Origin: Candidatus Zixiibacteriota bacterium
Lineage (GTDB): Bacteria; Zixibacteria; MSB-5A5; GN15; FEB-12
DNA length: 64,000 nucleotides
Reading direction: 5' to 3'
Assembly (NCBI GenBank): GCA_040753875.1
Contig: JBFMDV010000005.1
Location: 62,001-126,000 of the forward strand
Part shown: positions 5,772-60,923 of the stretch, piece after piece
Layout: each line of letters starts with the position of its first letter
Numbering within the stretch: position 1 is the first letter of the stretch
Position numbers and translations under genes: made by a program
Notes under the pieces: generated by a model
What the model saw: the letters and a program-made list of their open reading frames with translations, nothing else
Database searches by the model: none
What the model was told of the DNA's origin: nothing

Positions 5772-7000
5772 TGTGAACCTCCAGTCTCTCCAAGGGACAG
5801 CATATGGCCGAGCTTGTCCCGCTTAGTCTCAAGATAACGATGGTTGTATTTCGAGGGCTCCACCTGAAGCGGAACACGCTCCGTAATTTCCAGTCCATAC
5901 CCGGTCAATCCGATCACCTTGCGCGGGTTGTTGGTCAACAAGCGAATCGATGTCAAACCCAGATCGACGAGTATCTGCGCTCCGATGCCGTAATCACGCA
6001 GGTCGGCGTCGAAACCAAGCTCTTCATTCGCCTGTACCGTATCCCGGCCGGCATCCTGGAGTTTATAGGCGAGAATCTTGTTGGCCAGTCCGATGCCTCT
6101 TCCCTCCTGGCGCATATAGAGCACGACGCCGCACCCTTCGGCCTCCACCATTTGCATTGCTCTGTGCAACTGTGGGCCGCAGTCACACCGGTACGACCCG
6201 AACACGTCGCCGGTCAGACAGCTCGAGTGAACCCGGACCAGCACGTTTTTCCTGCAGGCAATATCCCCTCTGGTGAGCGCCAGATGGTGGTGATCATCGA
6301 TATCAGACTGATACAGATGCAGCTTGAACGTCCCATGCTCGGTGGGAAAATCGACCGATGTCACTCGGGTGACCAGTTTTTCGGTTTGGTGACGGTAAGC
6401 GATCAGGTCTCGTACGGTAATGAATCTCAGATCGAACTCTTTGGCTATCTGGGCCAGGCGGGGCACCCGCGCCATGGTGCCGTCATCATCCATGATCTCG
6501 CAGAGCACTCCGACCGGTTTCAAACCGGCGAGACGAGCCAGATCGACTGCGGCCTCGGTGTGCCCGGCGCGCGAAAGCACACCCCCTTTGAGAGCCTTGA
6601 TGGGAAAGACGTGTCCAGGGCGACCCAGGTCCTCCGGCTGCGTGTGGTCGTCCGCAAGCGCCTTAATAGTTACCGCCCGGTCGTGCGCCGATATGCCGGT
6701 CGTGGTGCCGCGCAAGGCATCGACCGAAACCGTGAACCGTGTCCCGAGCTTGGCGGTGTTCTTCTCCACCATGGGGTGAAGCCCCAGATTCTCGATCCGC
6801 TCCTCGGTCATCGGCACGCAGATGAGTCCGCGCCCGTGACGCGCCAGGAAATTGACCGATTCCGACGTGACTTTCTCGGCGGCCATGATCAGGTCCCCTT
6901 CGTTCTCGCGGTCTTCATCATCGACCACCACGACGAATTTGCCCCGACGGATATCTTCGATCGCCTCGGGCACGCTGTTGAACTGAATCGTACCCGCCAT
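5768..7000 (-). CDS. ribBA: Bifunctional DHBP synthase / GTP cyclohydrolase II
   Basis: I chose the ATG at 7000 (410 residues), preceded by GGGTGGTGAT. The frame extends to 7051, but that part overlaps ribE. Residues 1-200 are DHBP synthase, with the acidic [14 protein letters not shown] loop and [14 protein letters not shown]. Residues 205-400 are GTP cyclohydrolase II, with the zinc cysteines in [19 protein letters not shown] and the RQEGRGIGL loop. The protein starts both branches of riboflavin synthesis, from ribulose 5-phosphate and from GTP. Both active sites look intact. Confidence 0.97.
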
Positions 7001-7638: not shown

Positions 7639-8742
7639 CTATCTCTTTGTACTGGGGTATCCCACGAACAGATAATCTTTTCCACAAGGCAGGAACTCGT
7701 ACTTGTCGAATTTCACAGACTTCGACAGGGTCGTCACGGACAGGTTTCCAACCGAACTTACGCCCTCGCCGATCACCATCGGCGCCAACACGACAATGTA
7801 TTTGTCTACCAACCCTGCCTTTAGAAACGAGGTGGCCAGTTTTCCGCCCCCCTCGACCAGCAACGAGCGAAAACCGAATTGCCGGGCCTTAGTGACCAGA
7901 TCGCCGAGGTCGAGCAGTCCATGTGTGTTCGTCGTGATCTCCCACAGTATTGGGCTGTGCCTTCTTCGTGTCGTGCCAAATCGCGACAATGATCGGCGGC
8001 TCGATGCCACGATGGTCTTCAAGTCTCCGTCCTTTTCCAGCAATTGGCAATGGCGAGGGAAACTCATGCTGCGCGTCACGACGATCCGGTACGGATTCGC
8101 GCCGGCCACATGACGAACGGTCAGGGCCGGATTGTCGGCGATAACCGTCCCCATACCGACCACGACGGCGTCGGCTTCGGCCCGCAGTCGGTGCGCGAAC
8201 ACCAGGGCATCATGTCCCGAGATCCATTTTGAGTCACCGGTCGCGGTGGCGATGCGCCCGTCGATGGATTGCGCCGTCTTGAGCACGACAAACGGGCGGT
8301 GTTTGGTATGGTAACAGAAGTACGCCTCGTTCAGCGTCCTCGCCTCATGGCCGAGTAATCCTTTTTCAACGATGACACCCGCCCGCCGCAATACCGTCGC
8401 CCCCTGGCCGTCGACGCGCGGGTCAGGGTCGTTGGTGGCGTAGACCACGCGAGATATCCCGGATTCGATGATAGCCTGTGTGCACGGTCCGGTGCGGCCG
8501 GTATGGCAGCAGGGCTCAAGACTGACCACAAGTGTGGATCCCCAGGCGAGATGTCCGGCACGTTTTAAGGCGACGATTTCGGCATGATCGGCGCCGGCAC
8601 GCCGGTGGTACCCCTCGGCGATTATCCGCCCGCGCTTGACCACCACGGCCCCTACCATCGGATTCGGCGATGTGTTGCCTCGTCCGCGTGCGGCGAGCGT
8701 CAGGGCCCGCTCCATGAACTGAGTGAATTGTCGGTCCACCAT
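7639..8742 (-). CDS. ribD: Bifunctional diaminohydroxyphosphoribosylaminopyrimidine deaminase / reductase
   Basis: The product has 367 residues. The N-terminal deaminase (about 1-145) has the zinc ligands in HAEIVAL and PCCHTGRTGPC. The C-terminal reductase (about 150-365) has the GDSKWISGHDALVFAHRLRAEADAV-type substrate site and LLVEGGGKLATSFL. It is the first gene after the FMN riboswitch. Its ATG lies 7 nt after a GGGG Shine-Dalgarno that forms part of the 3' arm of the expression-platform hairpin, so both transcription and translation may respond to FMN. Confidence 0.97.
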   Translation of the reverse strand: MVDRQFTQFMERALTLAARGRGNTSPNPMVGAVVVKRGRIIAEGYHRRAGADHAEIVALKRAGHLAWGSTLVVSLEPCCHTGRTGPCTQAIIESGISRVVYATNDPDPRVDGQGATVLRRAGVIVEKGLLGHEARTLNEAYFCYHTKHRPFVVLKTAQSIDGRIATATGDSKWISGHDALVFAHRLRAEADAVVVGMGTVIADNPALTVRHVAGANPYRIVVTRSMSFPRHCQLLEKDGDLKTIVASSRRSLSRFGTTRRRHSPILWEITTNTHGLLDLGDLVTKARQFGFRSLLVEGGGKLATSFLKAGLVDKYIVVLAPMVIGEGVSSVGNLSVTTLSKSVKFDKYEFLPCGKDYLFVGYPSTKR

Positions 8743-8767: not shown

Positions 8768-8805
8768 CAAACGGACAGACCGATAGTGAGACGAACTCCT
8801 ATCTT

Positions 8806-8922
8806 GGTTTTCTACCATCCGGACTTTAACCGTCGGCGCCTGAATTGCACAGGCTCAACCAGCTTTTGGCCGGGTCGCGGGCTGTACCGCCGATCGAGGA
8901 ATTGCACCTCGCCCCGAAAACC
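8806..8922 (-). promoter_or_regulatory. FMN riboswitch (RFN element) aptamer
   Basis: Read on the minus strand, the leader has the RFN landmarks in order. They are TTCGGGGCGAGGTG, a first ATTCC arm, GATCGGCGGTA, GCCCGCGACCCGGCC, GCCTGTGCAATTCAGG, CGCCGACGGT and AGTCCGGATGGTAGA. P1 closes with GGTTTTC (8922-8916) against GAAAACC (8812-8806). The element sits between a TTGCCT/TATATT promoter and ribD. By established family behaviour FMN binding turns the operon off. Confidence 0.96.
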
Positions 8923-8936
8923 GCTTTGTGAGCGTT

Positions 8937-8964: not shown

Positions 8965-11124
8965 TCAGATATTTTGTGACTCGAGTTCCCTGCTCCGCTC
9001 GTGGGTCAGCTCGTACACAAGGGCCTTTACGTCTTTCAGATGGAACGGCTTGGGGACTACAGCCTTAACTCCCTTGTGGGCTATCTCTTCCTCGTTTAAT
9101 TGAGTGCCCCAGCCGGTAATCATCGCGATCGGCATCTTGGGGTGAGCCTGGTGAGCCGCCCCGGCTAGCTCCAGACCGGACATGCCGGGCATGCCAAGGT
9201 CGGTAATCAGAATATCGTATTTCTCCCCCTTGAGTTGTTTGAGGGCCGAATACCCGTCGGCGCACCCAACCGTGGTGTGCCCCTCAAGGTCCAGCATGTC
9301 GGCCAGGATACCGCGGATCTGCTCGTCATCATCCACCACCAGCACGCGGAGCGGTCTGGTAATGCGGGTTTTACTGGTACTGTCGGATACCGCATCGGCG
9401 GCGCCTGTTTTCTGCAGCGTGATCCGGAAAACGGATCCAACGCCGGCGTCGGAATCAACCGTCACTTTGCCGCCCCAGCGAGTGATAACGCCATGGACAA
9501 TAGCCAATCCCAGCCCGGCGCCGCGGATACTCTTGGTCGTAAAGAACGGGTAGAATATCTTACTGCGGATACCGTCCGGTACCCCCGGTCCGGCATCGAT
9601 GACCGACAAATGAAACACGCGATCATTCTCGGTCAGGGTGACGCGAACGGACGATTGGTCGGGCGCGAATTCGACGGCATTCTGAACCAGCTTATCAAGA
9701 ACGGTCGTGAGATCCTCGCTCGAACCATCGACACGCGCCTCGGCCGTCTCGATGGAACAGGTCACTGTGACCCGTTTGCCAAGCGCGAGATCGCTCCAGA
9801 CGTGGTCGTGACAGTCGAAGTACCCTCGCACACAAGAGACCAGGTCGATCGTGTCGAGCTTGCGTGCCTTCACCGACGTGCTGAACTGCTGCAGTCGGGA
9901 AATCGTGGTCGCGGCTTCGAGTGCCGTCGCCTCGATCTTTCCGAGGGAATCGACGGTGGCCTCGTCGGGACATTTCATTTTCAGCAGCTGCAACCGGCCC
10001 ACAATGCTTCCGATCACGTTATTCAAATCGTGAGCGATCCCCGAGCTCATGTCGGCCAGGGTGGCCATGGTTTCCGCGTCAGCCAGACGTACCGAAGTCT
10101 CCTTAATACGTTCGTTGTGCTTGCGAAGCCCCCGTACCAACAGCGCGTTATTGATGATGGAACGGCAGAACATCCGGACCAGACTGATGAGTTCGATCTC
10201 CGCTTCGGCAAACGAGATCTCGTCATCGCGCACGAACGCGGCGCCATATTGATACTGCTCATCGCCGTACAGCTCGATCGCCATCACTTCGCGGCGGTAC
10301 TTATTGAACCGGTGGCTGAGATCGTGCCAGCCTCGTGTCGTGACTTTGCGTTTTCGCAGACCTTCAAGGAGCGCTTTGCACTCGTCCTGAAGATCGTCGT
10401 ACAGGTCTTTCGGCAACGGCGATCCGCCGATCGGGTCGGTGGTGGTGTACTGGCCGGTGACTATGTCGCGGGTGACGAGAAGGATTGATGCCCCCGGCAG
10501 CACTGTACGCACCGTTCGCAGCATGCGCACGACCAGCTCGGACACCTTGTATTCGTCGAGCGGCAGATCGAACAGACTGATCAACGCCGACAGCCGAAGG
10601 GAGAAGTTGTCGGACACATGGATCTCCTCGATCAGTGCCATCCAGCCCAGTAAGACTTCCGAAAGCGGCGTGATGATATAGCTGACGTTGGTCAGGTTGT
10701 TCTCCGGACGAGTCTTCCAGTAAGCCACGATGACGGCGCGAAGATTTCCGCCCACGTAGATCGGGTATTGAAAGCGGGTGACGAGCCCGTTGGCCACGGC
10801 GAAGCGGTCCGTCTCGTCGGCGGCGCCCGATCGATCGTTCAGATGGAAGATGCCGCGCCGTGATGCCTTCCGGGCACCGGTCGCGCCCTGATACGCCGAT
10901 TCGAGCTCCCGCAGCTCAGCCACACCGCGGTCGTCCCATCCCTGAAAAGCAGCCGGCACCAGGTCTTCGCTGTCGGAGCGGCGGTAGAAAATGGCGGCAA
11001 AGTCGCACGAAAACAGCTTGAGAAGCAGCTTGGCGACCGTGTCGATCTGTCCCACAATCCTATTGATGCGCGTGCTTTGACGCACGTGGAAATACTGATG
11101 AATCAACTCCGATGAGCTTGCCAT
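8965..11124 (-). CDS. Cytoplasmic GAF hybrid sensor histidine kinase with C-terminal receiver
   Basis: The product has 719 residues and no TM segment. Residues 1-340 hold two GAF-like regions. A HisKA helix follows with the phospho-acceptor His in SGIAHDLNNVIGSIVG. The HATPase_c domain has an N-box (LVQNAVEFAP), G1 (DAGPGVPDGIRSKIFYPFFTTK) and G2 (GAGLGLAIVHGVI). The last 120 residues are a receiver (VLVVDDDEQIRGIL) whose acceptor Asp is in ILITDLGMPGMSG. There is no output DNA-binding domain. It is the last gene of a three-gene sensory operon, 8 nt after the preceding gene, and the only member with a complete kinase core. The signal is unknown. Confidence 0.9.
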   Translation of the reverse strand: MASSSELIHQYFHVRQSTRINRIVGQIDTVAKLLLKLFSCDFAAIFYRRSDSEDLVPAAFQGWDDRGVAELRELESAYQGATGARKASRRGIFHLNDRSGAADETDRFAVANGLVTRFQYPIYVGGNLRAVIVAYWKTRPENNLTNVSYIITPLSEVLLGWMALIEEIHVSDNFSLRLSALISLFDLPLDEYKVSELVVRMLRTVRTVLPGASILLVTRDIVTGQYTTTDPIGGSPLPKDLYDDLQDECKALLEGLRKRKVTTRGWHDLSHRFNKYRREVMAIELYGDEQYQYGAAFVRDDEISFAEAEIELISLVRMFCRSIINNALLVRGLRKHNERIKETSVRLADAETMATLADMSSGIAHDLNNVIGSIVGRLQLLKMKCPDEATVDSLGKIEATALEAATTISRLQQFSTSVKARKLDTIDLVSCVRGYFDCHDHVWSDLALGKRVTVTCSIETAEARVDGSSEDLTTVLDKLVQNAVEFAPDQSSVRVTLTENDRVFHLSVIDAGPGVPDGIRSKIFYPFFTTKSIRGAGLGLAIVHGVITRWGGKVTVDSDAGVGSVFRITLQKTGAADAVSDSTSKTRITRPLRVLVVDDDEQIRGILADMLDLEGHTTVGCADGYSALKQLKGEKYDILITDLGMPGMSGLELAGAAHQAHPKMPIAMITGWGTQLNEEEIAHKGVKAVVPKPFHLKDVKALVYELTHERSRELESQNI

Positions 11125-11132
11125 GCGTTACC

Positions 11133-13280
11133 TCATACGATTCCCCGGGCGGTCGTCATAGGTGTCGGTGTCGAAGAATGTCGTGGAGCACCACAGTCTA
11201 TACACAGTTCATAGGTGTCATCGTCAACAACGTGCACGTAACATGTCGCCAGGCCGCTCACGTAGCCATCCTGGCCGTTGCTGTTCGGCGCGGGCTCGTA
11301 TCCGTGCAGCACACCGGCGCCGAATTCTGTCAGACTGATATCGCCAATCAGGGCGCGATCAAACAAAATGGTCAACCGGCATTGATCATCTTCCGAACGC
11401 ATCGACACCCCGACCGTCCCCGAGCAGACAGCGCTGCCGAGCACCGATGTCACCAGTGGCAGGAGGAAATCGTAGATGGCCGCGCTGCCTATCGCTATAG
11501 CTTCATCGGGTACCTCATCCGAGTGCACCGACACGCTGATGTTCTTTGTGTCTCTGATCTGACGGATGGTCCCTTCAAATAATAGCGGCAACAGTCGAAT
11601 GAAAGCTGATGCATCGCCAATAGTCATGTTTGTCGGCTCGGCGCACGCGCAGATCTGCCCTATCCCTTCGACATGTTTCCATACGGCATCCATAGCGTCA
11701 CGCATACGGGCCGTACGCAATTCGTGGTCACCGGTCGAAATATCCTTCCCGCTCTGACTCAACAGTTCAAGTTGTCCGTCCGCCACTGAAATAGCGCTGT
11801 TGAGCCCGTGGAGTGTTGCCAGAGAGAGCTTCTGTACAGTCTCCAGTCGTCGGAGCAGCGGTTCGATCTGCGGCCCGGTTGTTCGTGTCGAGGATGGGAT
11901 CTCCCCACGGGTGACCGCGTTCAGCAGTTTGCCATGCAGGCGAATGTAGTCAGCAACACACTGCAGAAACGGCAGCATTGAGCTCAGGTAGTCACCCTGT
12001 ACCGGGCTTCCGAAAACAACCATGCCGCTTTCCACGCCGGCATCTCCCAAGGGCAAGTACATCTCGGCACGGACGTTTCGGACGTAGAGCTCCTTGGCGG
12101 TCTTCTGATCCAGGTCCGACAGGCCGATCTCCTTAACGACGAACGGCCGACCCGCAGCCAACGTTTCGACCGCTTGCGACGGGATCGCAACGCCCTCAGC
12201 GACCCCTACGGAGGCGGGCCGACCAGGTTGGATGACGATCTCACGATAGCGCTCCCGTGTCGAATCGACACCAAGGTCTATAGCCACACGCGTCAGTGCG
12301 ATCTGTTGGGACAACACGTCGAACAGCTCCTTCAGGTCTTCGTTGAACTGCCGTTCCGTAGCGGCGCTGGTACCCAAACGACCGAAATGACGGGTCATTT
12401 CGGCGCAGGTCGTGAACTGGCTGACATGCAGACGCGACAGCAGACGAAGTATTTCGCCGAGGCGACATACGGAGGCATCCAGCAGGTTACCCGGCCCGGC
12501 TATCACAAGAAGCTGCTTTTGCGGCTCGCAGACGACCCCAGGGTGCATGAAGAGGAAATCGGGCGGGGCAGTCAGGAACATGGGATGGTCGGGCAGGATT
12601 TCCGCCGGAATCAATCGGTTCGCCAGGCCAATATCATTCTCCCAGGGAGCGGCAACCTCGAAAGGGATCTCGCGGGCCAAGCGATGGCACCGCTCGAGAC
12701 TGCCCACGGTAAGGCGTTGCACATAAACTCCCTGTGCTTCCACATACACACCGGCGTAACTATTGGTCCAGATATGCGACATCCAGGCCAGTGTCCTGCG
12801 GACGAAGCTGTCGACGCTGTTGTCGCGGTGAAAGAGACGGCTCACGAATTCTGACGCGATCTCTGTCCGGAACACCGCGTTGGCGTTATATTTGACGGCA
12901 AGACCGGCGCAGAGCTTCTGTAACTCCTGTGCCGGCACATCCTGTCCTGCGTTGACGGTCAGAATTGCGGCAACACGATGGTCTGTCAGAAGCGGGATAA
13001 GCTGGTACTGTTCACTTTCCACAGGATTGCCGACGGCTGTCGACACGTCGATCTCGGACTCGAACGGTTCCACTGAGCGGCGCATGGTGTTGAGGTGCAG
13101 ACGGGGCACATAGAGCCAGGAATCCTCGAACTGTTCGCCCCGGCCATCCCCCACCCGTGCAAACAGCTGCGGCACACCATGGGTGGCGTACAAGCGGACA
13201 CCGAGACTGGTCGCCTGGCAAGCCAGCGCGGCCCAATCGACACCCGTTTGCCGAGTCGACGTGTTCAGCGGTTCGATCAT
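11133..13280 (-). CDS. GAF-containing protein with degenerate histidine-kinase core
   Basis: The product has 715 residues and no TM segment. I see two GAF-like alpha/beta regions, about 1-130 and 300-450. The second contains AAGRPFVVKEIGLSDLDQ and AEMYLPLGDAGVESGMVVFG. A helical segment near residue 490 (LATLHGLNSAISVADGQLELL) aligns by eye with the H-box of the neighbouring kinase, including the His. The C-terminal 200 residues have the length of an ATPase domain but no recognisable N, G1 or G2 boxes. This suggests a pseudokinase or adaptor that could pair with the downstream hybrid kinase. Its start overlaps the stop of the upstream membrane GAF gene by 4 nt (ATGA). The fold assignment is inference. 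Confidence 0.6.
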   Translation of the reverse strand: MIEPLNTSTRQTGVDWAALACQATSLGVRLYATHGVPQLFARVGDGRGEQFEDSWLYVPRLHLNTMRRSVEPFESEIDVSTAVGNPVESEQYQLIPLLTDHRVAAILTVNAGQDVPAQELQKLCAGLAVKYNANAVFRTEIASEFVSRLFHRDNSVDSFVRRTLAWMSHIWTNSYAGVYVEAQGVYVQRLTVGSLERCHRLAREIPFEVAAPWENDIGLANRLIPAEILPDHPMFLTAPPDFLFMHPGVVCEPQKQLLVIAGPGNLLDASVCRLGEILRLLSRLHVSQFTTCAEMTRHFGRLGTSAATERQFNEDLKELFDVLSQQIALTRVAIDLGVDSTRERYREIVIQPGRPASVGVAEGVAIPSQAVETLAAGRPFVVKEIGLSDLDQKTAKELYVRNVRAEMYLPLGDAGVESGMVVFGSPVQGDYLSSMLPFLQCVADYIRLHGKLLNAVTRGEIPSSTRTTGPQIEPLLRRLETVQKLSLATLHGLNSAISVADGQLELLSQSGKDISTGDHELRTARMRDAMDAVWKHVEGIGQICACAEPTNMTIGDASAFIRLLPLLFEGTIRQIRDTKNISVSVHSDEVPDEAIAIGSAAIYDFLLPLVTSVLGSAVCSGTVGVSMRSEDDQCRLTILFDRALIGDISLTEFGAGVLHGYEPAPNSNGQDGYVSGLATCYVHVVDDDTYELCIDCGAPRHSSTPTPMTTARGIV

Positions 13281-14704
13281 AGCGACGCGTCCTCGAAGAA
13301 TAACGGTTCTTTGTAACGCTCACCCGGAACCACAAGGGCCGACCTGGACGCGACGTCAGCATCGCGCAGAATTGCACCCTCCCGTTCAACTGAGAGACGA
13401 ATGGACAACCGCGAGCCGAGGGTAGCGAGTTTGGCGGCTTGTTGCCGAAACCGAAGACGCAACCGTCGCTCGTGATCCCGGCGGAGAAGCTCCGCGAAGA
13501 TGTCGGCGGCCACGCGCAGCAGACCCAGATCAACATGGCTGACCGACCGCGTAGCAGCCGGTGCGAATGAAAGCACTGCCCCGGAGCCGTGACGAGCGAT
13601 CACCGGCACCTGCGGCGATATCGATTGACCCAATGATTGAGACCTTCCGGCCGGCATCCGGAGGACGTCGCCGATACTATCGGGCAGGGTCGTGATCGAT
13701 CTGTTTTCAATCAGCGGGTTTTCGCTCGGTCCCCAGGTGTATCGACGAATTCTGCCGGCCCGGCGGTTGACCATCGTCAGTGTCACCAGGTCGCAGTGAA
13801 GTTTGCGCCTCAGGGCAATAGCCAGCCGGGACAGTTTGGCAGTCAGGTCCCCTCGCGCTGAGAGCAACCCACGCAGTTCCGCGCGGAGTTTAGCGCATTC
13901 GTGAAAGTAACGGCATTTGCGAGCGTCGAGATCGTGGTGGATCGATCGGGCCAGTACATCTGCAGCGAGTCTCAGGTCCAGCGACGTTGATTCATCGACG
14001 GCAGATTCGCCCGCCCAGACTAACATGAAAGCTACGGGTTTCCGCTCGATGAGCAACGGTACCACCAGCGAAGGCTTCCCCAGACGCGGATTGAGGTTGT
14101 CGAAAGGTGACACCGTGTGTGCAACAGATCCCGATTGGACGCGTGCCCAGGCGGCGCGGTCGAACCGGACGGCCGTTTGTACGAAGCGAAAATCGGCCCA
14201 CGGGCTGGCGGTCGTCAGGTGCAAGACGTTGCGGCGAGCTGACAGCCGATAGATGGCTCCATATGGAAGCTGAAAACCCTCTGCGATATACCCGAGCGCC
14301 CGTTCGAGCAGATGTTCGGGGCGCGTCTCAACACCGACAAGCTGCACGAGCTTCTTCAGTGTCTCAAGCCGTCGAATGGTGACGCGATCGCGTTCATTAC
14401 GCGCTCTTCTGTGTTGTAACCAGATCGAAATGCCAGTGGACACACACACGGTCCCAAGGATCGTCCCAACCCACACCAGTACGCGATGAAATAACGGGTC
14501 GGACAAGAACGGCACTTCGTTCAGATAGCCATACTCAAAGTAGAGCTTCAGTAGTGAGGTAAGCGCCAGAATGCTGATGCCTGCGGCGACATACCGGAAA
14601 GCTTCTCTTTGTTCGCGCCAAATGTCAGCGCGAAGTCGGCTGAGCATGATGAGCGCGACCACAAAGAAAAGCGGCACGAGTAGTTCGGTTGGCAGCCTGA
14701 GCAT
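13277..14704 (-). CDS. Membrane-anchored tandem GAF sensor protein
   Basis: The product has 475 residues. Three hydrophobic segments, near residues 5-20, 38-55 and 72-95, are followed by a coiled coil (RRARNERDRVTIRRLETLKKL). Two GAF-like regions follow, about 115-255 and 275-430; the first contains HLLERALGYIAEGFQLPYGAIYRL. There is no catalytic domain. It is the first gene of the sensory operon and overlaps the next gene by 4 nt. A GGAAC sequence 5 nt before the ATG is the likely Shine-Dalgarno. It probably provides the membrane tether for the set. The exact GAF boundaries need a profile search. Confidence 0.65.
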   Translation of the reverse strand: MLRLPTELLVPLFFVVALIMLSRLRADIWREQREAFRYVAAGISILALTSLLKLYFEYGYLNEVPFLSDPLFHRVLVWVGTILGTVCVSTGISIWLQHRRARNERDRVTIRRLETLKKLVQLVGVETRPEHLLERALGYIAEGFQLPYGAIYRLSARRNVLHLTTASPWADFRFVQTAVRFDRAAWARVQSGSVAHTVSPFDNLNPRLGKPSLVVPLLIERKPVAFMLVWAGESAVDESTSLDLRLAADVLARSIHHDLDARKCRYFHECAKLRAELRGLLSARGDLTAKLSRLAIALRRKLHCDLVTLTMVNRRAGRIRRYTWGPSENPLIENRSITTLPDSIGDVLRMPAGRSQSLGQSISPQVPVIARHGSGAVLSFAPAATRSVSHVDLGLLRVAADIFAELLRRDHERRLRLRFRQQAAKLATLGSRLSIRLSVEREGAILRDADVASRSALVVPGERYKEPLFFEDASL

Positions 14705-16161: not shown

Positions 16162-17994
16162 CTACGTCGTTCGGATCTGGGGGCGGATGTCCGGCACTGA
16201 AAGGCCGATGGGAACATGGATGGTGAAAACCGAACCTTGGCCCGCGGTTGACTGGACCGTAATTCGGCCCCCGTGAAGGTCTACCATCCGACACGCCAGC
16301 GGCAGTCCCAGACCGGTCCCGGAAGGGCGCGAGGAATAGAACGGCGTAAAGATCGACTCAAGATGCTCAGCGTCAATACCGTCAGCCTCGTCAATGACAT
16401 GGATGACAAACTCGCTTCCACACATAGCGGCTCTGACCGTGACCGTACCGGAACGTGGTGCATAGGCTCTGGCGGCGTTGTCAATCAGATTGCAGACGGC
16501 CTGTTTGAACAACAGTGGGTCAAGCGCCATCTCCAATTCGGTCGTGCAATCAAGGTGGAACTGGAGCGCGCGATACTCCTCGCGCAGCCGAAAGGAGTCC
16601 ACGATCTCGGCAAGGAATTGGTCGATCCTGACTAATCCAAAATTAGGCGTTATCGGTCGGGCAAATGTCAGAAACCGCTCGATCAGCAGCTCGGCTTGAC
16701 GGGTTTCGTCGCTGATCGATTCGACGGCGCTGTCGATCTCTTCACCTTTCGCCGCCTTTCGCCGAGCCAGCGTGCTGTATCCGGCAATGGCGCCCAGCGA
16801 GTTTCGCAGCTGGTGAGCGATCCCACCAGCCATCTCACCAAGAGCTACCAGACGGCTCCGCTGCTCCAGTTCGGCGCGCAACTGTCTGAGTTCACTCAGG
16901 TCGTTGACAATCAATGATAACCCGACCAGTTCACCGTCTGAGTTTCTGACAAACGACGTTGTTATCCCCAACGTCTGCTTCCGTCCGCCGACGGCTGAGA
17001 CGGTGTATTCGCGATATGAACTTCCCGCATGGGCATCCAGCATCTTGTGAACGTCGCCGGCCGGCATCGGATATCCGCCCAGCAATTCGGAAATAGCAAT
17101 GCCGCGGCTGACCTCCGGCGTTACGCCAAGTATCCGGCCGGCGGCGCTGTTGACCTCCAGCACTCGTCCTGTCATATCCATGGTGACGATGCCGGTGTCG
17201 ACCGACGCCAGCAGATACTGATTGAACTGCTCCAGCGATTCGGCGCGGTTTTGCAGCTCGCGATTAAGCCTGAGCAGTTCATTCTCTTTGTCGCGCAATT
17301 CCGAGATGACACGGCGGTATTCCGCTGCAACCTCATCACCAGTCTCGACCTCGGCGCCAGACCGTCCGGCGAGCTGCGCTTCCTTTCTTATCTTGCGGAT
17401 GGGTGCAAAGATCTTGCGTGAAAGCGCCAGGTACATGACGATCACCACCACCAGCGACGCCACACTGATCATGAATATCAACCGCGATGCATCGTCCAAG
17501 AGTGCCAGTTCAGAGACGTTGGTCGACAGGATCAGAAGATTCTGACCCTTCCCGTTGGGAATAGGCGACACGAAGAAATACTCGTTCCCTTCGGCCCGCG
17601 TCAGCTTTTTGAAATCGGCGGCAAGAAGTCGCTCCGCCATCCTGGGGAGGCTTCCCACAGGCAGGTCGCGTGCGATCGAGACAAACCATCGGCGCCGGGT
17701 TTCTGGCGAGTTGTCGTCAGGCCCCGATGCCACCAGTGTGACTCCGCTCAGTCCGTATTGAGCGCGGAATTCCCGCCGCTGGACCTCCGATAGCTGCTGC
17801 TGGCTGTTTCCTTCAACTACGCGAGTTATGGCCAGTGAGGCTTTCTGCAGGTGCGAGGTAATATCCTCGATCTGCCATGTCCGCGCCCGAAAGATAGTGT
17901 AGTTCGAAACCACGTTCAAGGTCAGCAGGACGCAGATGATCAGCAGGAGGCCGAGATGCACCTCGGTCTCGTATTTATGCAGACGTTTTGCCAT
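16162..17994 (-). CDS. PAS-containing membrane sensor histidine kinase (NtrB-like)
   Basis: The product has 610 residues. TM1 is at about 13-33 and TM2 at about 170-192, enclosing a periplasmic sensor domain of about 135 residues. A HAMP-like linker and coiled coil follow. A PAS domain (LASVDTGIVTMDMTGRVLEV) comes near residue 265. HisKA has its His in EMAGGIAHQLRNSLGAIAGY. HATPase_c has DNAARAY, DEADGIDAEHLESIFTPFYSSRPSGTGLGL. This layout is typical of kinases that pair with sigma-54-dependent regulators. No regulator gene is adjacent. The only one in the window is the NtrC-family gene at 28449-29807, and pairing with it is a guess. Confidence 0.92.
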   Translation of the reverse strand: MAKRLHKYETEVHLGLLLIICVLLTLNVVSNYTIFRARTWQIEDITSHLQKASLAITRVVEGNSQQQLSEVQRREFRAQYGLSGVTLVASGPDDNSPETRRRWFVSIARDLPVGSLPRMAERLLAADFKKLTRAEGNEYFFVSPIPNGKGQNLLILSTNVSELALLDDASRLIFMISVASLVVVIVMYLALSRKIFAPIRKIRKEAQLAGRSGAEVETGDEVAAEYRRVISELRDKENELLRLNRELQNRAESLEQFNQYLLASVDTGIVTMDMTGRVLEVNSAAGRILGVTPEVSRGIAISELLGGYPMPAGDVHKMLDAHAGSSYREYTVSAVGGRKQTLGITTSFVRNSDGELVGLSLIVNDLSELRQLRAELEQRSRLVALGEMAGGIAHQLRNSLGAIAGYSTLARRKAAKGEEIDSAVESISDETRQAELLIERFLTFARPITPNFGLVRIDQFLAEIVDSFRLREEYRALQFHLDCTTELEMALDPLLFKQAVCNLIDNAARAYAPRSGTVTVRAAMCGSEFVIHVIDEADGIDAEHLESIFTPFYSSRPSGTGLGLPLACRMVDLHGGRITVQSTAGQGSVFTIHVPIGLSVPDIRPQIRTT

Positions 17995-28448: not shown

Positions 28449-29807
28449 TCAGCGGAGTTTCTGCGGGCTCAACTGGTATTCTTTGATCTTGCTACGGAGG
28501 GTGTTGCGATGGATTCCGAGGCGCTCGGCACAGAGTCCCAGATTCCAGTCAAGTTGATCGAGACAAAACTGGATGTGTTCGCGTTCAATTTCACCGAGCG
28601 GGCGGACCTCACGAGGCTGAACACCCGTTCGCGCCGGTGCGAGACCGGTGAGGTCATTTTTGTCTATTGCAGAGTCGGTGCTTAATACCACGGCTCGCTC
28701 AATCACGTTTTCCAGTTCCCGCACATTGCCGGGCCAGGAATATGCGGCCAGCGCCGCCGCCGCGTCCGGCGTGATAGAATCGATCTGCTTGCCGAGTCGC
28801 CGCGAGAATTTCTCCAGGAACTTGTGTGCAAGAAGAAGGGTATCGCCCGGTCGTTCGGCCAGTGACGGGAGTTGAATTCTCACGACATTGAGGCGATAAA
28901 AGAGGTCCTCGCGAAACGCCAGCTCCCTCACCATGTTGTCCAGATCGCGATTGGTAGCAGCGATGATGCGGATATCAAGCGATATCTCCTTCACGGAGCC
29001 GAGCCGCTGGATATGCCGGTCCTCAAGCACACGCAGAAGTTTGACCTGCATGCTCTGGGGCATTTCACCAATCTCGTCAAGAAACAAAGTGCCGCCGTCA
29101 GCCAGTTCGAACCGCCCCTGCTTTGGTTTGTCCGCTCCCGTGAACGCCCCTTTCTCGTAGCCGAAAAGTTCGGCTTCGAGCAGTGTCTCCGGAAACGCCG
29201 CGCAATTGATAGCTACCAGCCGTTTGTCGGACCGTGGGGACAGCGCATGGATAACGCGCGCCACCAGTTCCTTGCCGGTTCCGGAGGCACCGGTCACCAA
29301 TACCGTTGCTTCACGCGGTGCAACCAGTTTTATGAGCTCCCGGACTTTGTTGATGGCCTGCGACTCGCCGAGCAGTTCAGAAGCGGGGAACACGTCGGCG
29401 ATCCGATCCTGCATAATCTGGTTATCTACGACCAGGCGGTTCTGTGCGGTCGCTTTCTCGAGTTTCACCAGCAGTTCATTGAGATCCTCGACCGGCTTAG
29501 TGAGATAATCGTAGGCACCGGCTCGCATAGCGGCGACGGCCGTCTCAACCGAGCCAAACGCGGTCAGCACGATGACTTGAATGAGCGGATTGAGTTCGCG
29601 AAGCCGCGCGAGCAATTCGAGACCGGTCATACCGGGCATTTTCATATCGATGAGTGCCACCGGAGCGAACACGCCGGGATAGCGTTCGAGCGCCTCTTCC
29701 CCGCTTCCCGCCTGGGTAATCTCGTAACCCGAACGCGAGAGAAAACCGGCCAGCAGTTGTCGCTGGTCAGACTCATCATCAACCATGAGCAGGCGGGTGG
29801 CAGCCAT
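28449..29807 (-). CDS. NtrC-family sigma-54-dependent response regulator
   Basis: I chose the ATG at 29807 (452 residues) because the receiver begins right after it (RLLMVDDESDQRQLL); in-frame TTG/GTG codons lie upstream to 29843. The receiver Asp is in VALIDMKMPGMTG. The AAA+ domain has Walker A GASGTGKE, an intact GAFTGA loop for sigma-54 contact, Walker B TLFLDEIGEM and the R-finger region. A Fis-type HTH (WNLGLCAERLGIHRNTLRSKIKEY) ends the protein. It should bind enhancer DNA and activate sigma-54 promoters. No kinase is adjacent. Confidence 0.95.
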   Translation of the reverse strand: MAATRLLMVDDESDQRQLLAGFLSRSGYEITQAGSGEEALERYPGVFAPVALIDMKMPGMTGLELLARLRELNPLIQVIVLTAFGSVETAVAAMRAGAYDYLTKPVEDLNELLVKLEKATAQNRLVVDNQIMQDRIADVFPASELLGESQAINKVRELIKLVAPREATVLVTGASGTGKELVARVIHALSPRSDKRLVAINCAAFPETLLEAELFGYEKGAFTGADKPKQGRFELADGGTLFLDEIGEMPQSMQVKLLRVLEDRHIQRLGSVKEISLDIRIIAATNRDLDNMVRELAFREDLFYRLNVVRIQLPSLAERPGDTLLLAHKFLEKFSRRLGKQIDSITPDAAAALAAYSWPGNVRELENVIERAVVLSTDSAIDKNDLTGLAPARTGVQPREVRPLGEIEREHIQFCLDQLDWNLGLCAERLGIHRNTLRSKIKEYQLSPQKLR

Positions 29808-29843
29808 GTTCTGAAACGTAATGTCCCCATTCACCGCGGGCAA

Positions 29844-30774: not shown

Positions 30775-32940
30775 TTACGGACAGACCGGCAGCGGCGCGC
30801 CGAAGAAGAGATAATCGATCAGCGCCTGCAGATCGCTGATATCGACCGCGCTGTCGCAATTGAGATCACCAAGTTGCCACGGGTCAGGGCCGATGCCACC
30901 GAAAAACAGATAATCGACCATACCGCTGAGGTCGCCGATATCAACCGTGCCGTCGTTGTTGAAATCACCCGCAACGAGCTGGTCGTACACGGAGGTGGCA
31001 ACCAGATTGCCGAGCCGTCCCTCCTGACCCTGAGCATCGGTTGCGCGAGCCCGATACCAGTAAGTTCCTGGCGTCCTATTAGTGAATGCGTATGATGTGT
31101 CGATGATCGTCCCGCCGATCTGCGTCGAGCCGGCGAACATATCCACGTTGCCGATATCATCGAGCCAGACGCCGAGGCCGAGAGTGTATGAATCCGTGAA
31201 ATACGACAAGCGTATAATGACCTGCTGACCCGCGTATGCCGACAGGTCATACGCCACCCGCACCCAAGTGCCGGAACTTCCGGTAATACCGTTTCCAAGA
31301 TTCTGATTGTTCGGATCGGAGTTGGTGGTGAGGTCGTTGGCCAGATTCGCAAACTGGTAGCCACCGTCGGTCGACACTTGTGCGTAGAAGTAGTCCCAAT
31401 CCTGCTCGATATCATACCAAATCCAGAAGCGCAAGGAATCCCCCGACGTGACCAGATACGGCGTCCGCGAGACCAGCCAGTGATTGGCACGGTTGGCGCT
31501 CTGGCTGCCCCACGACCAGGTGCCGGCATGTTTGCGCACGGTGGAACGGATCATCCTGGCTGCGTCCCAATAGCCGTGGTCCACTTCCGCATCATCAGTA
31601 ACCGTCTGCTTGCCGGTGAGCTCGTAGAGACGATAGGATACCGGCGTGTTGATCGAATCATCGACATGCCAGTGCACCGAGTACGACGGACCGGAGGAAT
31701 CCGGCACCGCGAGAATTGGCTCAGTCGGCGGTGCAATGACATAGGGGTTGTCCGCAATCCTGGCCAGGAACAACTGCGGGTCGATGTTCTCGGCTTCCAG
31801 CACCGGGATTCGCGAAGGGGGCGGCCAGAAACCGTCGCTCGGTCCGCCGATCTCGGTCGTCAACGAGATGATGCGAGGTTTGGAGATAGTATCTCCCCAC
31901 ATCCAGTCATCGGCCGCACCGTTCGTCGGGTACAGCACCCAACTCACTTGCGGCGTGTAGCCGTTAAACTGCGTCATCGAGTCCCCCAGGTTGTTGAAGA
32001 AATCGTCGCGATGCGTGTAGATACGGTCGTAGCCGAACGGCCAGAGCACCAGATTGGAATAGGTGTGAATATTGTGGCATATGACGAACTGGCGGGCATT
32101 TACAAAATCGCGGATGTTTTGTGTTTCGGGTTCGGAGAATGGGCCGGTGCCTCGGTACGTTTCCGATGCAGGCAGCGAAGACGAGCCGAGGTCATCGAAA
32201 CCCCATTGGGCGGAAAAATTACGATTCAGGTCTATCCCATAGTCGCCGCCGACAACACGACGGTTCTTCCGCCACATGCCGCCTCCGGTTGGATCGGTGA
32301 CCTCATTGTAGTAATAGCCATCGGGATTGGTGACGGGGAGGAAATAGAACTCCCTGTTGTCGACAAGATCCGTGATCCCCTGGTCCACGCCGTAATTTGA
32401 CAATAGGTAATCGATAAACGTCAGTAAGGCAGCAGCACCGGCGGGCTCCCGGGCATGGATAAGCGAGTTGTAAAAAAGTTCGGGTTCGTTCTCGTCGACA
32501 GCAGGGTTATCGGAGACTTTGATCACCCACATCTGCCGACCTTCGATCGTCGTGCCGATAGAGAATTTTTGAGTGCAAAGATTGGGATAGACGGTAGCCA
32601 GCGTGTCGAGATACGCCTCGATCTCCGAGAGCGTCCGGAAACCGCCGTAGTCGACGGTCGGTTCGTAACGCGAAGCATAAAACGCCGCCATGTCCGCCTG
32701 AACGACATCGTAAGAAATGCCGAGAAAGCGGAGCTTATCCAGGTCCCCCGGCTTGGCCAGTATCTCGAATTGGTCCCCGTCGGCTTCGAGAATGTCAAGC
32801 CCTAGGCTGATCATGTCCAGATACTGTGCCTTGGTCATCTGGTGAACCTTGATCTGGGAGACCGGCTCCGCCGCCGCCCGCGCCGTTTGAACGCACGCCA
32901 GCGCGCTGAGGCACGAAAGGAGAATTGCCTGACGAATCAT
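30775..32940 (-). CDS. Secreted M14 zinc carboxypeptidase with C-terminal dockerin-like repeats
   Basis: The product has 721 residues. A signal peptide covers 1-23. The M14 domain (about 95-400) has zinc ligands H162 and E165 in IHAREPAG, the later His in HNIHTYSNLVLWPFGY, substrate residues in DLNRNFSAQWG and the catalytic Glu in LTTEIGGPSDGF. A beta-rich region with a MAM/jelly-roll character follows. The last 65 residues contain two dockerin-like calcium repeats, GDFNNDGTVDIGDLSGMVDYLFFGG and a partial copy (GDLNCDSAVDISDLQALIDYLFFG). It is probably an extracellular peptidase held to a surface partner. Confidence 0.9.
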   Translation of the reverse strand: MIRQAILLSCLSALACVQTARAAAEPVSQIKVHQMTKAQYLDMISLGLDILEADGDQFEILAKPGDLDKLRFLGISYDVVQADMAAFYASRYEPTVDYGGFRTLSEIEAYLDTLATVYPNLCTQKFSIGTTIEGRQMWVIKVSDNPAVDENEPELFYNSLIHAREPAGAAALLTFIDYLLSNYGVDQGITDLVDNREFYFLPVTNPDGYYYNEVTDPTGGGMWRKNRRVVGGDYGIDLNRNFSAQWGFDDLGSSSLPASETYRGTGPFSEPETQNIRDFVNARQFVICHNIHTYSNLVLWPFGYDRIYTHRDDFFNNLGDSMTQFNGYTPQVSWVLYPTNGAADDWMWGDTISKPRIISLTTEIGGPSDGFWPPPSRIPVLEAENIDPQLFLARIADNPYVIAPPTEPILAVPDSSGPSYSVHWHVDDSINTPVSYRLYELTGKQTVTDDAEVDHGYWDAARMIRSTVRKHAGTWSWGSQSANRANHWLVSRTPYLVTSGDSLRFWIWYDIEQDWDYFYAQVSTDGGYQFANLANDLTTNSDPNNQNLGNGITGSSGTWVRVAYDLSAYAGQQVIIRLSYFTDSYTLGLGVWLDDIGNVDMFAGSTQIGGTIIDTSYAFTNRTPGTYWYRARATDAQGQEGRLGNLVATSVYDQLVAGDFNNDGTVDIGDLSGMVDYLFFGGIGPDPWQLGDLNCDSAVDISDLQALIDYLFFGAPLPVCP

Positions 32941-58955: not shown

Positions 58956-60923
58956 TCAGTCCGACTGGCGGACAGCCTGAGCCATAATGAACGTGATGTC
59001 ATCGGCCTGTTTGACGAATCCGGAAAAGGAATCGAGCTCGTTCACCAGTTCCGCCGACAGCCACCCAAGGCTGGGCGGGTGCCCGTTGCGCAAGTGATCG
59101 GCCATGAAACGTGCCAGGCGGTCGAAGCCGTATTGATGATGTTCGTTGTCGGTGGCTTCGGTGACACCATCAGTGTAGATGAAGAACAGGTCGCCAGGTG
59201 CGAGATCAAGTGACAACTCTTCGAGTCCCTCGGAGAACCCCTTGCCCAAAGTAACATCAACGCCCAACGGCATGCCACCCGGATTGACCCGGATCAGTTC
59301 GCGGCTGGAAGCACGATAAAAAAGCATCGGCGTATGCCCCGCGGAGACAACATGGATGCGCCGGTGGCGGGCATCGTACAACACCATTAGGACCGTGATG
59401 AACATTCCAGGCGGGACGTTTTTCACGAGGTAATCATTGACCGACAGCATTGTCTGGCGGACCGACACGGCGTTTTTGGCCTGGATCTGAATGACCGTGC
59501 GGAGCATTGACATGACTAGCGAAGCCGGCACCCCTTTCCCGGAAACGTCTGCGACCACCAGACAGTATCGATCCTCGCCGATGGCGAACACGTCGTACAG
59601 GTCTCCGCCCACCATTGAGGCGGCGCGATAAAACGTCTCGATCTCCATGCCGGGGAGCTGTGGCAACTGCTGCGGGAGAAGTGTCTTCTGGATCTGTGAG
59701 GCGACCTCGATCTCTTTGGCCATCTTCTCCCGTTCGATAACATTGCGACGGTCCCGGCTCAGCCGGGTCATCATGTCGTTCAGAGCGCGACTGATCTCGA
59801 AGAACTCGTCGGCTCCCTCCAACGGCAGTTCGGTTTCAAGATCACCCGATGAGAACCGGCGCACGCGCTCGGTGATTTTGGCGATCGGCTTGACGAAGTA
59901 GTTAGAAAGCAGGTATATCCCGCAAATACCGATAAAGAGCAGCCCGGCGGTCACCACCAGCGTTTTGCGCCTGGCATCGGCAAGCAAGGTGTGCATCTGT
60001 TGTGACGAGTACGTGACATGAACGAGACCGAGCGTCCGTTCACCCGTCTTGATCGGCAGCGCGACATAGTTCATGCCCGCCCCGCCTGATTCGAAACGGA
60101 CCGGTTCCCCGATCGCATCGGACGCCACTTCCGCCGGTACCCGATACGGTTTGCGGATATTGCGGATGTCCTCGGAATGCGCCATGATGAGTCCGGCGTT
60201 GTCCGTGAGGACGACCTGCCGGAGCATGGGGTTGGACCGTACGTAACTGACGATCAATTCGTCGAACTCGACATCGCTCCGCCGATTCAGAATGTACCCG
60301 GCCGCCTGATCCGCGATGGTTTTGCCGAGCGCCTCGACCGTCTGATCGAGATGAGCATACACTTCCCGGGTGGTGCGGCTGTCGACATAGTAAAAGGCCC
60401 CGGCCACGATCAGGCTGACGATGAAGAAGGTCCAGAACGAGAACTTGACCCGAAGCGTGAACAGGCGCCGGAGAAGCGGCGGCGCCGACGTAAACGGCTT
60501 CTCGATCCGTTTGATCATGCGCAGCTCGTTGTAGCCGCCCGATGAGATATACTCCACGGAATCCATGATCTTCTGGATCATGTAAAAGCCGAGCCCGCCT
60601 TTGCGCCCGGACTCGACCAGCTTGGCGAGGTCGACCCGCCCGCCTCCCTGCGGTTCAAACGATCGGCCGGAATCTATCAGCGAAAACGCGATGAGCCGTT
60701 TGTAAATGACGATCCGAAAACGCAGCAGCCCCTTTTCGTACAGGTAGGCGTGGCGAATGATATTGGTCGCCCCTTCCTCGAGTGCGAGCAGGACTGATGC
60801 CGTATCCTTCTGCGGCATGTTGGCCGCTGTGCAGCTTTCTTTCGCCAGCCGGCGTATCCCCTCCAGATATCTCTCTTCAGCTGGGAATTCGGCGTCGATC
60901 TCTTTGATGGGGCGGTTGAACAT
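58956..60923 (-). CDS. Fusion of RsbW-type ATPase, membrane sensor, HAMP and SpoIIE-type PP2C phosphatase
   Basis: The product has 655 residues. Residues 1-145 are an RsbW/SpoIIAB-like HATPase with N-box ALEEGATNIIRHAY, G1 DSGRSFEPQ and G2 GGLGFYMIQKIMD. TM1 lies at about 160-182 and TM2 at about 315-338, enclosing a periplasmic sensor of about 130 residues. HAMP follows (KPIAKITERVRRFSSGDLE). The PP2C domain has its metal aspartates in SMVGGDLYDVF, VADVSGKGVPASLVMS and FIYTDGVTEATD. One chain thus carries a possible kinase and a phosphatase for a STAS protein, and the gene next to it encodes one. Confidence 0.9.
   Translation of the reverse strand: MFNRPIKEIDAEFPAEERYLEGIRRLAKESCTAANMPQKDTASVLLALEEGATNIIRHAYLYEKGLLRFRIVIYKRLIAFSLIDSGRSFEPQGGGRVDLAKLVESGRKGGLGFYMIQKIMDSVEYISSGGYNELRMIKRIEKPFTSAPPLLRRLFTLRVKFSFWTFFIVSLIVAGAFYYVDSRTTREVYAHLDQTVEALGKTIADQAAGYILNRRSDVEFDELIVSYVRSNPMLRQVVLTDNAGLIMAHSEDIRNIRKPYRVPAEVASDAIGEPVRFESGGAGMNYVALPIKTGERTLGLVHVTYSSQQMHTLLADARRKTLVVTAGLLFIGICGIYLLSNYFVKPIAKITERVRRFSSGDLETELPLEGADEFFEISRALNDMMTRLSRDRRNVIEREKMAKEIEVASQIQKTLLPQQLPQLPGMEIETFYRAASMVGGDLYDVFAIGEDRYCLVVADVSGKGVPASLVMSMLRTVIQIQAKNAVSVRQTMLSVNDYLVKNVPPGMFITVLMVLYDARHRRIHVVSAGHTPMLFYRASSRELIRVNPGGMPLGVDVTLGKGFSEGLEELSLDLAPGDLFFIYTDGVTEATDNEHHQYGFDRLARFMADHLRNGHPPSLGWLSAELVNELDSFSGFVKQADDITFIMAQAVRQSD

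Follow-up and report, generated by a model that had tools for sequence, protein, structure and literature searches.

In the 64,000-nucleotide stretch of a Candidatus Zixiibacteriota (Zixibacteria) genome analysed here (GCA_040753875.1, contig JBFMDV010000005.1, positions 62,001 to 126,000; henceforth the window), three consecutive genes, termed T1, T2 and T3, are encoded on the minus strand, as are all further window features given below. T1 (13277..14704) encodes a membrane-anchored GAF protein of 475 residues, T2 (11133..13280) a soluble protein of 715 residues with three GAF-like domains, a dimerisation and histidine phosphotransfer (DHp) domain and a degenerate catalytic and ATP-binding (CA) domain, and T3 (8965..11124) a hybrid histidine kinase of 719 residues. 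The first-pass annotation of this DNA described the genes as overlapping or nearly touching, and the coordinates of the open reading frames agree, with a four-nucleotide overlap of T1 and T2 (ATGA) and an eight-nucleotide gap between T2 and T3. In T2, the kinase core has lost ATP-binding motifs and kept its phosphoacceptor histidine.

The DHp helical hairpin of T2 spans residues 472-545 (11646..11867) and the CA-like domain residues 554-697 (11190..11621), as delimited by AlphaFold with Foldseek and with alignment, respectively. The annotation had reported an H-box-like helix, LATLHGLNSAIS, in a GAF protein devoid of readable N, G1 and G2 boxes, and this description is borne out: the helix is a true H-box, in which His491 (11808..11810) aligns with the phosphoacceptor histidine of T3, and the N, G1 and G2 boxes are absent, including the N-box Asn and the G1 Asp. 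The histidine is kept in 20 of 21 T2 copies at approximately 20% identity and ranks fifth in conservation among the 240 columns of the core, and T2-specific motifs (D604..LP and EAICSG) are conserved in the CA-like domain. T2 carries two marks of ChpT/Spo0B-type proteins, a histidine on DHp helix 1 and a CA-like fold without ATP-binding boxes; of the marks of DivL/RetS/RocA-type regulators it shows the loss of ATP-binding motifs but not a freely changing acceptor position. Judged from its motifs, the earlier label of pseudokinase is right as regards ATP binding, whereas the conserved histidine suggests a role in phosphotransfer rather than that of a mere pseudokinase.

Residues 16-457 of T2 (11910..13235) form three GAF-like alpha/beta domains (about 16-150, 156-282 and 309-457) according to AlphaFold and Foldseek. 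Pfam gave only a weak GAF_2 match for the window T2 (E=0.011), and GAF profiles match 2 of 12 T2 relatives. The AlphaFold model of the T2 core (17 relatives) consists of a DHp hairpin and a CA-like alpha/beta domain (predicted local distance difference test score 80.6, predicted template modelling score 0.79), and the model of the whole protein adds the three GAF-like domains. The full model matched tandem-GAF proteins such as phytochromes and PDE6 in Foldseek, and the phytochrome matches appear to reflect the tandem GAF folds. The core matched DHp-CA kinases and ChpT, and the top TM-score among the 50 matches listed belonged to ChpT 4qpk_B (0.50/0.59); ChpT 4fmt is also similar in fold, and DivL (4q20) and the RetS-GacS complex (7n0e) are among the listed matches. 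The core of the 715-residue protein hence matches DHp/HATPase folds, so that the refutation named in the annotation, no structural match to HisKA/HATPase, did not occur. A hidden Markov model search of the T2 core against PDB sequences returned weak DHp matches only (FixL, KdpD and ZraS, E 0.08-0.8). Most T2 copies have the three GAF-like domains, unlike the sensor-less ChpT/Spo0B type, and four genomes encode the core alone.

The origin of T2 can be traced to a sister family, designated f4, in which T1 is followed by a single 860-residue hybrid kinase. T2 aligns over its whole length with these kinases (659 columns, profile E=2e-40), whose H, N, G1 and G2 boxes are intact by motif (L077, L078, L088, L089) and which carry an attached receiver that looks degenerate in L088 and L089. 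Because the alignment runs end to end, T2 is best read, on sequence grounds, as a former hybrid kinase minus its receiver and its ATP binding. In the tree of cores, T2 sits on a long branch with the f4 kinases as its nearest neighbours, and T3 lies among other hybrid kinases; the split of T2 and f4 from T3 has weak support (84/66), in a region where long branches meet. The DHp-CA cores of T2 and T3 form separate, strongly supported groups, far apart. We considered T2 and T3 as recent duplicates and rejected this on the same, weakly supported, placement; T3 may be a separate recruit.

T3 has all the parts of a hybrid histidine kinase: its DHp carries the histidine, its ATPase domain the N, G1 and G2 boxes, and its C-terminal receiver the phosphoacceptor Asp and the Lys. 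Profile searches of the window copy matched HATPase_c (1.4e-22), Response_reg (1e-21) and HisKA (5.6e-5) and found no DNA-binding domain. Thus the assignment of T3 as a GAF hybrid kinase without DNA-binding output stood, apart from its GAF domain, which is unmatched in the window copy and matched by profile in 5 of 15 relatives. The phosphoacceptor His365 (10030..10032) is invariant, residues 469-572 (9409..9720) form the HATPase_c domain, whose N, G1, F and G2 boxes are all intact, and residues 594-702 (9019..9345) the receiver with D642. The catalytic residues are complete (H365, N482, G1 DAGPG, G2 GAGLGL, D598-D600, D642, T670 and K692), in agreement with the proposal of one functional kinase in the trio, and the HATPase and receiver domains are strong in 15/15 T3 relatives. 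The G1 Asp is replaced by Asn in L071, L074 and L075, kinases that are otherwise intact, which suggests weakened or altered ATP binding in these copies. At beta-4 of the receiver stands an invariant ITGWG, and the switch position, usually Tyr or Phe, holds Val or Ile. In CckA, the intermediary receiver carries an FxSGY/FATGUY motif, shows no allosteric response and shuttles phosphate to a phosphotransferase (PMC9981736). The resemblance of the T3 receiver to such CckA-type receivers is supportive of a relay, not diagnostic.

T1 begins with three hydrophobic, probably membrane-spanning segments (residues 4-89, 14438..14695, Kyte-Doolittle scan), followed by a GAF domain (residues 129-229, 14018..14320) recognised by GAF_3 in the window copy and by GAF models in relatives. 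It had been described as a membrane protein with two GAF-like regions. The membrane segments were recovered and GAF models match 31/33 relatives (best E=7e-23), but the window copy is truncated and yields a single weak match (GAF_3 E=0.0015, below the cut-off of Pfam). T1 relatives have three membrane segments and GAF domains, a third of which is seen by alignment, and most orthologues comprise 590-750 residues compared with 475 in the window. We therefore ruled out that the window T1 represents a full-length two-GAF design, since its C-terminus ends inside the third GAF; the DHp hairpin is absent from it too. The relatives mostly end in this hairpin (HisKA profile 26/33, HATPase 0/33), in which the histidine position is occupied by any of 11 residues (G, S, N, T, Q, R, W, K, D, P or His), with His in 1/29 motif-bearing copies. 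T1 accordingly lacks what defines a HisKA histidine kinase, a phosphoacceptor histidine together with a HATPase domain. It serves as an internal control for T2, because in the same operon and on the same helix the histidine drifts in T1 and is held in T2.

T1-T2-T3, or T1 with part of the trio, is found between rnhB and ribD in approximately 40 related genomes in the recurring order dnaJ-prmA-rsmE-pilD-HK-efp-rnhB-T1-[T2]-[T3]-ribD-ribE-ribBA-ribH-nusB-leuS, and the recurrence of one chromosomal place in so many genomes puts the arrangement far beyond chance. Of the 54 genomes in the window's family (window genome counted), 20 gave strong T2-core matches, and among 132 phylum genomes searched none outside that family did so. 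T1 is present across most of the order. The expectation that the three genes stay together in relatives thus holds, with the full trio in 18 genomes including that of the window, although other forms exist: T1 on its own in at least 12 loci, T1-T3 in six genomes (G016, G028, G041, G045, G046 and G050) and T1 with the fused f4 kinase. One of the 18 trios, that of G042 (L094), has in-frame TAA stop codons in T3 and T2 (6471-6473 and 8548-8550); its T2 is the sole copy of 21 without the phosphoacceptor histidine (His to Asn), T1 alone carries His at the DHp position there, and the locus looks broken or badly assembled. A scan of the genome contigs with T2 alone as query found nothing because T2 is too divergent.

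A T2 core without T3 was never seen; T3 accompanies T2 in 18/18 genomes whose contigs permit checking, and no intact T1-T2-T3 locus has lost the core of either T2 or T3 singly. Furthermore, the GAF modules are missing from T2 (G002, G022, G024 and G030, with full-length T3) or from T3 (G012, G034 and G048, with full T2), never from both. The constant company of T3 and these complementary losses fit T2 and T3 acting in a shared sensory complex or relay.

The operon ends at T3, because a flavin mononucleotide riboswitch (8803..8925, Rfam RF00050, 100.9 bits, E=3.1e-23) follows as the leader of the downstream rib operon, ribD-ribE-ribBA-ribH. Lying between the two units, it rules out membership of the trio in the rib operon. 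Promoter and terminator scans gave nothing above background. Upstream of the trio lie rnhB, efp, an AtoS-like kinase and a prepilin peptidase. Nearly all relatives keep the kinase (16162-17994) next to pilD and efp, and its partner may be a sigma-54 response regulator approximately 10 kb away (28449-29843). Elsewhere in the window, 58956-60923 encodes a 655-residue membrane protein in which an N-terminal, anti-sigma-kinase-like HATPase_c_2 domain precedes a Cache sensor, HAMP and a SpoIIE phosphatase, so that a single chain combines both sides of a partner-switching system, kinase-like and phosphatase; 30775-32940 encodes an M14 zinc carboxypeptidase, presumably secreted, that also carries a dockerin repeat and a MAM domain like that of immune inhibitor A.

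We propose that T1-T2-T3 is one signalling operon organised around a His-Asp-His relay, with T2 as the phosphotransferase and T1 as a membrane platform, and put the probability of this at roughly one half. Its grounds are the domains, the folds, the loss and retention of motifs, the synteny and the ancestry of T2; from these we infer every phosphotransfer step, which proteins touch, what signal is sensed and which regulator gives the output. T3 would sense through its N-terminal GAF-like region, autophosphorylate on His365 and transfer the phosphoryl group within the same protein to Asp642 of the receiver, from which it would move to His491 of T2. Gated by its GAF domains, T2 would act as a ChpT/Spo0B-like histidine phosphotransferase and hand the phosphoryl group to a response regulator encoded elsewhere. 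T1 would provide the membrane GAF platform, whose degenerate DHp hairpin, lost in the window copy, probably docks cytoplasmic partners or dimerises. The retained histidine argues for such a phosphotransferase fed by the T3 receiver rather than a purely structural partner. In addition, the genome encodes no free-standing Hpt and just two Hpt domains, one in a CheA-like 655-residue frame and one fused in a 1329-residue frame, despite several hybrid kinases, so that T2 could fill this role. The best reading is hence a lineage-specific phosphorelay module with T2 and T3 as a pair. Slightly more tentatively, we suggest a Zixibacteria-specific relay that arose when a hybrid kinase became, at its original locus, a GAF-gated phosphotransferase, T2, serving T3 beside T1, a remnant with a His-less DHp docking hairpin, so that three grades of kinase decay would be reused in one operon.

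Several observations weigh against the relay. The trio has no neighbouring gene for a cognate response regulator, and bacteria of the Fibrobacteres-Chlorobi-Bacteroidetes group commonly lack free Hpt proteins. Many active kinases score similarly to ChpT among the listed Foldseek matches of the T2 core, and the 17 T2 cores gave no match to a Spo0B- or ChpT-type Pfam family. TG-aromatic motifs at beta-4 are found in other receivers too, so the receiver motif is a weak argument on its own. In two genomes T1 is accompanied by a bare receiver, in G029 with no T2 core (L069 9320-9757) and in G037 with a core-less T2 (L008 2804-3262); these are T3 receivers left after loss of the kinase core. Moreover, the histidine of T2 could be retained for trans-phosphorylation in a T2/T3 heterodimer or for a phosphatase role.

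The main rival, less probable than the relay and still a serious one, is that T2 is an allosteric pseudokinase in the manner of DivL-CckA, RetS-GacS and RocA-CovS, which through DHp or GAF pairing would flip T3 between kinase and phosphatase, its histidine being unused or a phosphate siphon. Degenerate kinases that control other kinases are well documented (PMC4211667, PMC12189002, PMC7028121), and the lost ATP-binding boxes, the strict company of T3, the DivL and RetS-GacS structures among the fold matches listed and the complementary loss of GAF modules, which suits a shared heteromer, would all follow. A purely allosteric partner does not need the histidine, yet 20/21 T2 copies hold it while T1 lets it drift. 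The combination of a kept histidine and lost ATP binding, with DHp helices of T2 and T3 that align across the H-box, would also suit a split kinase, in which the CA domain of T3 phosphorylates His491 in trans within a mixed dimer and T2 then phosphorylates a receiver directly; we consider this unlikely, since the distant DHp-CA cores make mixed DHp dimers less likely and the receiver of T3 would need another role. Least likely, T1 and T2 are decaying hybrid-kinase relics of little function and T3 alone matters, as their frequent truncation, the broken T2 and T3 of G042, the six genomes with T3 but without T2 and the fast T2 branches might suggest, but the T2 frame stays open at approximately 20% identity with its own motifs conserved (D604..LP, EAICSG and His491), and four genomes retain the core after loss of the GAF domains.

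If the relay reading is right, it adds a relay component in a phylum with little signalling work. One syntenic locus shows the apparent starting form (the f4 kinase), T2 as the product, intermediate states (reduced to the core, split or deleted) and, in T1, a second route of decay. Since all these forms sit in one place, genomes reveal in which order the parts were lost. The case also cautions against labelling ATP-dead kinases with a retained histidine as inert.

No description of this operon was found in the open-licence papers searched. Dead kinases serving as phosphotransferases have precedents in ChpT, Spo0B and PhyT (PMC3433190, PMC5898713). Like the proposed pair, CckA-ChpT of Caulobacter and Brucella joins a hybrid kinase to a dimeric phosphotransferase built of a DHp with His and a CA-like domain unable to bind ATP (PMC3433190), and it shares the intermediary receiver with a TG/SG-aromatic motif (PMC9981736) and the ChpT fold (4qpk, 4fmt). 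In contrast, T2 mostly has three GAF-like domains, is encoded beside its hybrid kinase, and appears to descend from a hybrid kinase of its own lineage without a ChpT sequence signature; no CtrA/CpdR-like target was identified for T2. Spo0B of the Bacillus sporulation relay is likewise a degenerate kinase that retains its histidine as a phosphotransferase, but it takes phosphate from the free receiver Spo0F and lacks GAF sensors, and we found no sequence relation to T2. PhyT/PhyP of the alphaproteobacterial general stress response is a former kinase that bears a sensor, combines a working histidine with a degenerate ATPase domain and acts as a phosphotransferase (PMC5898713); PhyT sits in the membrane, its DHp motif is HRxxN (HWE/HisKA_2-type) and it is fed by the single-domain receiver SdrG, whereas T2 is soluble, of HisKA type and adjoins a hybrid kinase. 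DivL, RetS and RocA resemble T2 as kinase relatives that control a partner kinase which is not their equal, but DivL has Tyr at the acceptor position, where nearly all T2 copies have His. The f4 GAF-HK-REC hybrid kinase occupies the same genomic place after T1 and differs from T2 in its intact boxes and attached receiver. What sets the trio apart from these precedents is that T2, the phosphotransferase candidate, bears GAF domains, adjoins its own hybrid kinase and can be traced back to a hybrid kinase, and that T1 has a DHp-only form.

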